Assembly: GCF_000337815.1 (NCBI RefSeq) | Contig: NZ_AOLN01000011.1 | Span: 372,001 to 436,000, forward strand | Reading direction: 5' to 3' | DNA: 64,000 nucleotides | Source: Haloferax mucosum ATCC BAA-1512 | GTDB lineage: Archaea; Halobacteriota; Halobacteria; Halobacteriales; Haloferacaceae | In this document: positions 5,045-24,935 of the stretch, piece after piece | How positions within the stretch are numbered: position 1 is the first letter of the stretch | Layout of the letters: each line of letters starts with the position of its first letter | Notes under the pieces: generated by a model | The model's database searches: none | Told to the model about the DNA's origin: nothing | Seen by the model: only the letters and a program-made list of their open reading frames with translations | Program-made: the position numbers and the translations under genes

Positions 5045-5114
5045 ACACGCTCGGCGTCCCTCAACACGCTCGCTGTCGCCCGCGAACAGTCACCGCACGC
5101 CGCTTGCGGCCCGA

Positions 5115-5134
5115 AGCGGGTTCCGCTCTTTTTT
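5115..5134 (+). terminator. Hairpin with T6 run after sufS
   Basis: AGCGG, a GTT loop and CCGCT form a 5-bp hairpin followed by C and six T residues at 5129-5134. This resembles an intrinsic terminator and lies between the sufS stop and the promoter of the scaffold gene. The stem is short, so termination may rely mainly on the T-run, which is enough for archaeal RNA polymerase. Confidence 0.5.
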
Positions 5135-5219
5135 GCTGGGCGAGCGTACCCGGCGAAATCGGCCGATTTGCGGCCCCGGAATCCTTTTACCGCGCTCGGG
5201 CGTAGCCCCGACGAACACA

Positions 5220-5663: not shown

Positions 5664-6017
5664 TTATTCTTCGTTCGTCCGCGACCCGAGCGCCGCGGCC
5701 AGCGCGACGAGGTAGCCGAGTCCGGCTTTGACGTCCGGGTCTCGCGTCGCTCGAAGGAGTCCGACCGCTCCGAGCGGCTCGGCATCGGCGTCTTCCGCGT
5801 CGGCGACTTCGGCGAGCGTGCTCCCGGTTCGTGCGATCGAGTGCACCATCTCGTCGTCCATCGCGCCGACGCCGAGTTCGACCACGTCGATGCGGTCGTT
5901 GACGAGACCGAGTCGTTCGACGAGGACGGCGACTTCTTCGGGGTTGTTCTCGATAGCCCGAACGAGTTCGTCGGGCACCGCCTGTTCGGTCGATTGTGGG
6001 TTCTCTTGGTCTTGCAT
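5664..6017 (-). CDS. DUF1641 domain protein
   Basis: This is a 117-residue acidic protein with a DUF1641-like core: LVERLGLVNDRIDVVELG in the middle and LLRATRDPDVKAGLGYLVALAAALG at the C-terminus. In archaea and bacteria DUF1641 genes commonly sit beside NAD(P)/FAD-dependent oxidoreductases of the sulfide:quinone reductase type, and the protein is thought to be a helper subunit. Here the partner is only a remnant ten bases upstream (6028-6203), so this gene may have lost its enzyme or serve a paralogue elsewhere. It ends 18 bases from the convergent scaffold gene. Confidence 0.8.
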   Translation of the reverse strand: MQDQENPQSTEQAVPDELVRAIENNPEEVAVLVERLGLVNDRIDVVELGVGAMDDEMVHSIARTGSTLAEVADAEDADAEPLGAVGLLRATRDPDVKAGLGYLVALAAALGSRTNEE

Positions 6018-6027
6018 CGTCCGTCCC

Positions 6028-6203
6028 TCAGAGCATTCCTCTGGCGGTCAGCCAGTACGATTCGTTGTACGTACGACTCGGTCGTCCGGGTCGGTAGCCT
6101 CGACCACGAAGTCGGTCTCGACGCGGACGCCGCAGTCGGCGAGTCGATTCGAGACCACCGTCCCGCCAGTTCCACCGACGACGACCACGATTCGCTGTGT
6201 CAT
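6028..6203 (-). pseudogene. Collapsed NAD(P)/FAD-dependent oxidoreductase remnant
   Basis: Reading leftward from ATG 6203, the first residues MTQRIVVVVGGTGGTVVSN form a Rossmann FAD-binding start typical of sulfide:quinone reductase-like enzymes. The frame stops after about 51 residues. In another frame the last codons before the DUF1641 start read RTYNESYWLTARGML and stop, which resembles the C-terminal tail of the same enzyme class. About 350 residues that such an enzyme needs between the two ends are absent and the frames no longer match, so I read it as an internal-deletion pseudogene. The match of the tail is from memory and short, so this is an inference. Confidence 0.55.
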
Positions 6204-6437
6204 CACGTTCACTTACGTGAGTAGTCGTTTCCGAGGGCGTCAGTATTGAACCACATCCCCAATATTGTGGGAACTGACAGACGGTGAGGCGATAGGGAGA
6301 CGGTGTTCAGTTCGGAGATAGTCGTTTCAGTCTTCCCAGACGAGATTGGGAAGTAGACACGACTGCTGGTGCTCAACGTCGTGGTTTCGAAGCGAAAGGG
6401 AGGACATGGAGTCTTGGGTTTGGAGCGGAAGCCGGGT
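6204..6437. other. Intergenic region between radA and the oxidoreductase remnant
   Basis: These 234 bases hold no credible gene. A 7-bp inverted repeat, CTTCCCA at 6332-6338 and TGGGAAG at 6347-6353, forms a hairpin with an 8-base loop, and could mark the 3' end of the minus-strand radA transcript. CCACA/TGTGG arms around AATATT at about 6250-6270 form a second weak palindrome near the promoter position of the remnant gene. Confidence 0.4.
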
Positions 6438-22315: not shown

Positions 22316-23797
22316 ATGAGTCCACTGCAGGTTGATCCCGGCGTCGTCGCACAGGGCGTCAACTACGTCTGGATACTCGTCGTGTCGTTCCTCATTTTCT
22401 TCATGCAACCGGGCTTTGCGCTCTTGGAGGCGGGGCAGGTCCGTGCGAAGAACGTGGGGAACGTGCTGATGAAGAACATGACCGACTGGGCGCTCGGCAT
22501 CCTCGTCTACTTCGTCGTCGGCGCGGGCGTGGCGACAATCGTCGGCGGTCTCACCTCGCCCGGCGGCATCGACGTCGCCGCCGCGTTCTCGTACATCGGC
22601 GACTCCGGCGCGTGGATCGACTGGCTCTTCGGTGCCGTCTTCGCCATGACCGCCGCGACCATCGTCTCCGGCGCGGTCGCAGAGCGCATGGACTTCCGTG
22701 CCTACGTCGTCTTCGCGGCGACCATCACGGGATTCATCTACCCCGTCGTACAGGGCCTCACGTGGTCCGGCGGCCTCCTCTCGGGAAGCGGCTACCTCGG
22801 TGTCGCCCTCGGCGTCGGCTACCTCGACTTCGCCGGTGCGACCGTCGTCCACATGTGCGGTGGCGTCGCCGGTCTCGTCGGCGCGAAGATGGTCGGCCCG
22901 CGCAAGGACCGCTTCGACGCGAGCGGCGAGAGCCAGCCCATTCCGGGCCACTCGATGTTGTTGGCCGTCCTCGGGACGCTCATCCTCGCGTTCGGCTGGT
23001 ACGGTTTCAACGTCGGCACGCAGGCGACCGTCCTCGCAACCACCGAAAGCGGCGGTCTGGAGTTCATGGGAGCCGCACTCGGCCGCGTCGCGCTCGTGAC
23101 CACCCTCGGGATGGGTGCTGGCGCGGTTGCCGCGATGCTCGTCTCGACGACCTACCAGGGCAAGCCCGACCCGCTCTGGATGGCGAACGGTCTGCTCGCC
23201 GGTCTCGTGGCGGTCACGGGCGCTGTTCCGCACGTCACGTGGTGGGGTGGTCTCGTCCTTGGCGCACTCGGCGGCGCAATCGTCCTCCCTGCGTACCGCT
23301 GGACCGTCGATTCGCTGAAAATCGACGACGTGTGCGGTGTCTTCGCTGTCCACGGTGTCGCCGGTGCGGTCGGCACGGCCCTCATTCCGGTGTTCGCCGT
23401 CGGCGGCTTTTCGGCCACGCAACTGGTCATGCAGGTCGCCGGTGTCGGCGTCATCGCCCTGTGGACCATCGCCGCCTCCGCGGCCGTCTTCGCCCTGGCA
23501 GATGCCGTCTTCGGCCTCCGCGTCTCCGAGGAAGAAGAACTCGAAGGGCTGGACATCGGTGAGCACGGCGTCTCCGTCTACCCCGAGTTCGTCGGCGACT
23601 CCGGACCAGACCCCGGACTGGGGACGCCGACTGCAACTGACGGCGGTTTCACCATCGACGAGAACACGTCCGGTACGCTTGCTGGCGATGAGAACACGTC
23701 AGGTACCTCGGCCGACGACGAGAGCGACGTTCGCACCGACGGCGGGACCGCCGAGTGTGACACCATGGCCGCGACCGACGGAGGTGACGAGCGATGA
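22316..23797 (+). CDS. amtB: Ammonium transporter, Amt family
   Basis: This 493-residue membrane protein has the eleven-helix Amt fold. The channel twin histidines are His179 (VVHMCGG) and His346 (FAVHGVAG), and the signature FGWYGFNVG is at about 226-234. It imports ammonium and is gated by the PII protein encoded next. The last 90 residues after [15 protein letters not shown] form a long acidic, Ser/Thr/Asp-rich cytosolic tail with a doubled ENTSGT element, longer than in typical Amt proteins. The start is MSPLQVDPG at 22316, backed by GAGGTG upstream. Its stop overlaps the glnK start (ATGA). Confidence 0.95.
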
Positions 23798-24153
23798 GCG
23801 ACGCAGAAACGGGTATCAAACTCGTCATGGCCGTCGTCCGCCCCGACAAACTCGCGGACGTGAAGACCGCGCTCGCCGAGGTCGGCGCACCGTCGCTCAC
23901 GGTTACGAACGTCTCCGGCCGCGGGTCACAGCCGGCGAAGAAAGGACAGTGGCGCGGCGAGGAGTACACGGTTGACCTCCACCAGAAGGTCAAAATCGAG
24001 TGTGTCGTCGCCGACACGCCCGCCGAAGACGTGGCCGAAGCCATCGCCGACGCCGCCCACACCGGCGAGAAAGGTGACGGGAAAGTGTTCATCCTCCCCG
24101 TCGAGAACGCGATGCAGGTCCGAACCGGCAAGACCGGGCGCGACGCGGTCTGA
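23794..24153 (+). CDS. glnK: Nitrogen regulatory protein PII, GlnK type
   Basis: This is a 119-residue PII trimer subunit. The T-loop carries Tyr58 ([12 protein letters not shown]), in the position of the uridylylated tyrosine of bacterial [30 protein letters not shown] near residue 87 is the nucleotide-binding and C-loop region. It senses ATP/ADP and 2-oxoglutarate and closes AmtB. The 4-base overlap with amtB makes this the classic amtB-glnK operon. The N-terminus has a few extra residues (MSDAETG). Confidence 0.95.
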
Positions 24154-24248: not shown

Positions 24249-24935
24249 GTGGTAAGTGTCGAAGTGCTCGGTGGTCTCGCTATCGCGCTCGGTGGCATGT
24301 CCGCCGTCGGTCTCGTCACTGACCGATACCTCTCCGAACCCGACGACTTCCGGGCGGACCTCCTCGTGAGCGACGCGAACAAATGGATCGTCTTCGCGCT
24401 TTTGTGTAGCTACGTCGTCTTCGTCGAAGGCCGTTCGCTCTCGTCGATGACCGGGCGCACGCTCGACCCACTTTCGTTCGTCGCGGCTGTCGGCGGCGGT
24501 GTCGTCGTCCTCTTCGCGGCAAACGCGGTGACCGCGCCGCTTTTCGACCGCTTCGGGGTAGGGAGCCTCGACGACGACATTGCCGATTTTACGTCGCTTT
24601 CGGTTCGACACCGGCTCTTCGTCGCCACGACCGCCGGAATCACGGAGGAAGTGCTGTTTCACGGCTACGCTATCGAGCGACTCCTCGAACTCACCGGCAG
24701 TCCGCTTCTCGCCGGAGGCGTCTCCTTTCTCGCGTTCGCCGCGAGCCACGCGGTCGGATGGGACCGCGAGGCAGTCGCCAGAATCGCTGTCCCCGCACTG
24801 TTGACAACGGCGATGTATCTGCTCGTCCGCGACGTAGTCGTCCTCGTGGCGATTCACGCCCTCAACGACGCGGTTGGACTGCTTCTCGCCGGGTCGGTTC
24901 GAGACGCCGACGCCGCCGAGCGGGCGACCCAGTAA
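24249..24935 (+). CDS. CPBP family intramembrane metalloprotease
   Basis: This 228-residue membrane protein starts with GTG 24249 and has about six helices. The CPBP (Abi/CAAX-like) motifs are EExxxR-like [10 protein letters not shown] (Glu133, Glu134), His167 in ASHAVG and IHALND (His203, Asn206). Usual members have R in EExxxR; here the residue is H in EEVLFH, a small departure. These enzymes cleave membrane substrates or process peptides; the target is unknown. It follows glnK by 95 bases and precedes hemL by 32 bases, so it may share either transcript. Confidence 0.85.

Follow-up and report, generated by a model that had tools for sequence, protein, structure and literature searches.

Positions 6028-6203 (minus strand) of the window, the 64,000-nt stretch of Haloferax mucosum DNA analysed here, very probably hold a young pseudogene, made by deletion, of a flavoprotein resembling sulfide:quinone reductase (SQR). 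An intact orthologue is in place in all 10 syntenic relatives, and the reading frame is broken here by a 400-bp deletion. The relic covers the exact start-to-stop footprint of a 381-codon gene that has been shortened from 1146 to 176 bp. The net loss is thus 970 bp, equal to 323 codons plus 1 nt, and not the roughly 350 codons estimated in an earlier reading of the sequence alone (the sequence-only reading). As a pseudogene, the relic is clean but of an ordinary kind, and the useful part of the finding is the knockout of an otherwise invariant SQR-DUF1641 pair. This natural knockout is well resolved: in 60 genomes of the family the two genes lie next to each other in 30 of 30 cases, and the enzyme half has been lost recently in one species, which makes the role of DUF1641 testable. 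The locus also provides a case of a haloarchaeal gene dying by deletion, whether in steps or in a cluster.

Remaining pieces of the SQR gene

The ATG at position 6203 (minus strand) starts a frame, MTQRIVVVVGGTGGTVVSNRLAD..., that runs for 51 codons to a stop at 6048, and a second frame, different from the start frame, closes with the C-terminal sequence at 6028 (minus strand). Three pieces of the gene are left in this interval (Table 1). In the N-terminal remnant, the first Gly of the GxGxxG (Rossmann) motif is replaced by Val, a change private to the window. The mid-gene island aligns over 71 bp at 83-87% identity in eight of the 10 syntenic relatives; in the remaining two the alignment covers 69 bp at 83-84%. 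Its protein match to residues 211-238 of the SQR query is 71%. This island and the N-terminal remnant share an 8-bp repeat, in which they overlap. A Pfam search with a 41-residue piece of the relic gave no match.

Table 1. Features of the SQR-DUF1641 region in window coordinates.
Feature	Position	Strand	Remarks
DUF1641 gene, 117 codons	5664..6017	-	PF07849, E 4e-12, 46.2 bits (cut-off 21)
60-bp deletion junction in DUF1641	5798..5807	-	imperfect repeat with 9 of 10 bases alike, exact over 4-5 bp at most
C-terminal SQR remnant	6028..6071	-	...ESYWLTARGML, then stop; 0-2 mismatches in 41 bp against 10 relatives
400-bp deletion junction	6069..6075, ~6072	-	exact homology of 1-3 bp, with 1-3 bases at the join left unaligned
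Mid-gene SQR island between the two deletions	6073..6143	-	~71 bp, ~codons 211-238
570-bp deletion junction	6136..6143	-	TCGGCGAG on the plus strand
N-terminal SQR remnant	6136..6203	-	~codons 1-22; aligns with the 5' end of the relatives' intact SQR genes
Conserved upstream element of SQR	6240..6274	-	GTTCYCAYAATRTTGGAAA-like, then CAATACTA-like; in 10 of 10 syntenic relatives

Comparison with Haloferax relatives

Fifteen genomes of the genus, including the window's own (G000), were searched with the SQR of H. gibbonsii as the query. In each of the 14 other genomes, DUF1641 lies next to a homologue of SQR with 57-100% identity to the query, and 10 of the 14 share the gene order iscU, DUF1641, SQR, radA with the window (iscU and radA, like sufS below, being names that we presume for the genes at this locus). 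In each of these 10 syntenic relatives, SQR is a single 1146-nt frame with the start MT(Q/N/H)RI(A/V)VVGGGTGG and the end YWLTARGML. The sequence-only reading had assigned both ends to one gene and had proposed an internal-deletion scar, to be checked by comparison with related genomes. The single frame with the same ends confirms the assignment, and the intact copies ending in YWLTARGML at the same place bear out the scar. In the parts of the literature available on DUF1641 and on Haloferax with sulfide quinone, nothing on this locus was found.

The protein of an intact relative contains PF07992 (Pyr_redox_2, the flavin-binding fold; E 3.7e-23) and matches human SQR (PDB 8dhk) over residues 4-352 with an E value of 5e-40. 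Cys162 and Cys333 of the intact query align with cysteines of human SQR, a pair that we take to be the redox cysteines, and both codons lie within the DNA deleted from the window. The sole NCBIfam SQR model matched by the intact copy was that of the type III selenoprotein SQR, with a score of 345.8 bits where the cut-off is 525; the model represents a selenoprotein subtype, and a score below its cut-off is no argument against SQR in general. As judged by these matches, the lost enzyme is SQR-like and belongs to the flavoprotein disulfide reductase superfamily, with the subtype not settled. With the two deletions, the gene lost both aligned cysteines, the greater part of the flavin-binding fold and its reading frame, and three scraps are left. 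The deletions were presumably tolerated because the cell no longer needed this enzyme for sulfide oxidation.

Eleven changes in the relic are private to the window, and these fall 1, 2 and 8 times on codon positions 1, 2 and 3, respectively (binomial P 0.009). The divergence of the relic from the relatives is about that of the same stretches between two genomes with the intact gene, G004 and G006. Given the third-position bias and this level of divergence, selection probably acted on SQR during most of the period after the split, and its loss is recent.

The element conserved ahead of the SQR gene is largely kept in the window, with a few changes. The GTTCYCAYAATRTTGGAAA-CAATACTA element is probably the promoter region and may possibly combine an operator with the promoter.

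Deletions and their junctions

Junction alignments with six relatives give two deletions in SQR, one of 570 bp (in frame) and one of 400 bp (frameshifting), and the length arithmetic is exact (1146 - 176 = 970 = 570 + 400). A single deletion, with ends flanking nothing as first supposed, is therefore ruled out, since the alignments place the middle island of ~71 bp (6073-6143) between the two. A third, in-frame deletion of 60 bp, by which 20 codons are gone, lies within the adjacent DUF1641 gene.

Junction repeats were measured in seven of the 10 syntenic relatives. At the 570-bp junction, a perfect 10-bp direct repeat, TTCGGCGAGG, is present in G006, a genome of the sister clade, and 3-6 bp are exact in the six other relatives. 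With the G006 region as a proxy, about 1 in 8,000 random deletions would have a repeat of at least 10 bp, and 8% would have one of at least 3 bp. The direct repeats that the sequence-only reading had suggested seeking at the deletion ends are thus present at the 570-bp junction (10 bp in G006) but not at the 400-bp junction (1-3 bp). Because the 400-bp junction has almost no homology and the repeat at the 60-bp junction is imperfect, a common repeat-driven mechanism is not established. The deletions may have arisen via microhomology-mediated end joining or via slippage between short repeats. Microhomology-mediated end joining is plausible at one junction, possible at another and unsupported at the third; overall, this route, which is known in Haloferax, may well be the cause.

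The missing parts of SQR were sought throughout the genome with the DUF1641-SQR region of G006, and none was found elsewhere. Of the 56 matches, the four with E values below 1e-13 (E 1e-89 to 7e-14, far beyond chance) all fall at this locus, and none of the other 52 has an E value below 4e-4. Translocation of the missing parts is therefore ruled out.

A scan of the window against five relatives, which cannot resolve intergenic stretches that have been replaced or evolve fast, found no further clean deletion of at least 50 bp that is specific to the window. The 570-bp deletion itself scored as clean in four of the five, the N-terminal scrap lying outside the chain of G010, in which the gene is still 1146 nt long. 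Clean gaps of at least 50 bp near positions 24919 (114-130 bp) and 39385 (1484 bp) were each seen in four of the five relatives and are not window-specific, because G006 lacks both gaps.

The three deletions are specific to the window and lie within ~350 bp of present sequence, those in SQR being recent. Because they cluster and the scan against the five relatives showed no other window-specific clean deletion of at least 50 bp, origin of the 60-, 400- and 570-bp deletions, perhaps together with the loss of an mscS-like gene beyond iscU, in one multi-junction repair event or by import of a block is kept in view, unlikely as it is.

Two further differences from the relatives were seen in the window. 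A channel gene that G004 and G006 have between sufS and iscU, and that we take from its sequence to be of MscS type, is missing, with ~100 bp kept at 5045-5144. At 23647-23814, ~2.05 kb found in relatives is missing; in G004 this stretch presumably holds an ammonium transporter.

The adjacent DUF1641 gene and its partners

The DUF1641 gene is not intact, contrary to what had been supposed from the sequence alone. The in-frame 60-bp deletion at 5798-5807 leaves 117 codons, against 137-138 in the relatives. The 39-residue Pfam domain is retained, and the 20 residues lost, which are otherwise conserved, lie upstream of it. The dN/dS ratio of DUF1641 between the window and the relatives is 0.17-0.26, and that between the intact G004 and G006 is 0.25. 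The substitution pattern looks constrained, and apart from the deletion there is no visible decay; the low dN/dS is no proof of a working DUF1641, because a recent loss would give such a value in any case. The predicted structures of the intact and shortened proteins are of low confidence (mean pLDDT 52.8 and 48.0, respectively), and a helix at residues 78-96 of the intact model, which overlaps the deleted stretch, is itself of low confidence and was not relied on.

Partners of DUF1641 were surveyed in 60 genomes of the family, G000 included, with SQR homologues taken at E 1e-30. For 30 of the 30 SQR homologues, DUF1641 follows 272-893 bp downstream in the same orientation. The 60 genomes hold 42 DUF1641 matches, and the 12 without such an SQR are that of G000 and 11 others. 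At 10 of these 11 loci (L137-L143 and L145-L147), DUF1641 is located between large frames with shared start motifs, and four flanking proteins from three SQR-free loci, run against Pfam, were all molybdopterin oxidoreductases. The eleventh locus, in G042, has a pyridine-nucleotide disulfide oxidoreductase nearby.

When the DUF1641-flanking molybdoenzyme was sought in the 15 genomes of the genus, G000 alone gave no match; some match was found in the 14 others, weak in G003 and G005. No other SQR was found in G000 at E 1e-30, the best remaining match being 27% identical (E 1.9e-5), and no second DUF1641 was found, the gene being single. An SQR paralogue as the partner of DUF1641 is thus ruled out at the sensitivity used (best match 27%, E 1.9e-5). 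As the genome is a draft (3.37 Mb, 3,368,982 bp; 20 contigs; 97.8% complete), a paralogue could still lie in the missing part. Two outcomes had been predicted for DUF1641 by the sequence-only reading. Cooperation with a paralogue does not agree with this search, and orphaning does, since G000 has neither a close SQR paralogue nor a match to the DUF1641-flanking molybdoenzyme, nor a second DUF1641. On the gene content of G000, the DUF1641 of the window is without a recognisable partner, and the remaining protein may be an orphaned subunit that is itself being lost.

Alternative explanations

Were the short form ancestral, with a gain in the relatives, or a functional mini-gene, the 51-codon frame from the original ATG and the retention of the upstream conserved element would be accounted for. 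However, in a tree of four neighbouring genes the window has G006 and G012 as its sisters and is nested within a set of genomes in each of which SQR is intact. The start and the end are also in different frames, split by the frameshifting deletion, and the Rossmann motif no longer has its first Gly. Such an origin is extremely unlikely. An artefact of assembly or sequencing is also very improbable, even though the genome is a draft of 20 contigs and three deletions fall within ~350 bp. The exact junction repeats, none longer than 10 bp among the measured relatives, are far under the usual assembler word lengths, and the scan against five relatives gave no other window-specific clean deletion of at least 50 bp. 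Deletion within a formerly intact SQR gene is thus the preferred explanation of the short form.

DUF1641 might still function without SQR, paired with another quinone-linked enzyme, as its frame is open, the Pfam domain is kept and dN/dS is low, and its Bacillus subtilis counterparts partner a menaquinone-linked formate dehydrogenase (PMC8808070, in excerpt). The genome, however, has no match to the DUF1641-flanking molybdoenzyme and no SQR, 20 otherwise conserved residues are gone, and a low dN/dS is expected in any case if the loss is recent. Continued function is, on balance, rather improbable, and an orphaned DUF1641 beside a young SQR pseudogene remains the preferred reading.

Comparison with known systems

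The intact relatives are similar to SQR, as they match the human enzyme and keep both cysteines of the alignment, whereas the window copy is without both cysteines and most of the fold.

In Bacillus subtilis, a menaquinone-linked formate dehydrogenase has DUF1641 proteins as its partner subunits (PMC8808070, in excerpt), and the molybdoenzyme-flanked DUF1641 loci of the family resemble ForCE of that species. The DUF1641 protein of the window shares a short C-terminal Pfam domain with the rest of its family, including ForE of ForCE, and as for ForE, DUF1641 is encoded beside a redox enzyme in the relatives. It differs from ForE in that the partner was SQR instead of formate dehydrogenase, and from the family in being 20 residues shorter upstream of the domain.

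End joining in H. volcanii produces deletions of 6-977 bp with 3-5 bp of microhomology (PMC2700283, in excerpt), and self-targeting mutants form deletions by the same route (PMC7521656, in excerpt). The deletions in the window, of 60-570 bp, are within the reported size range, and a short repeat is present at the 570-bp junction, as in microhomology-mediated end joining. In contrast to the H. volcanii events, one of the three junctions has a repeat above the reported length (10 bp, in G006) and one is essentially without a repeat.
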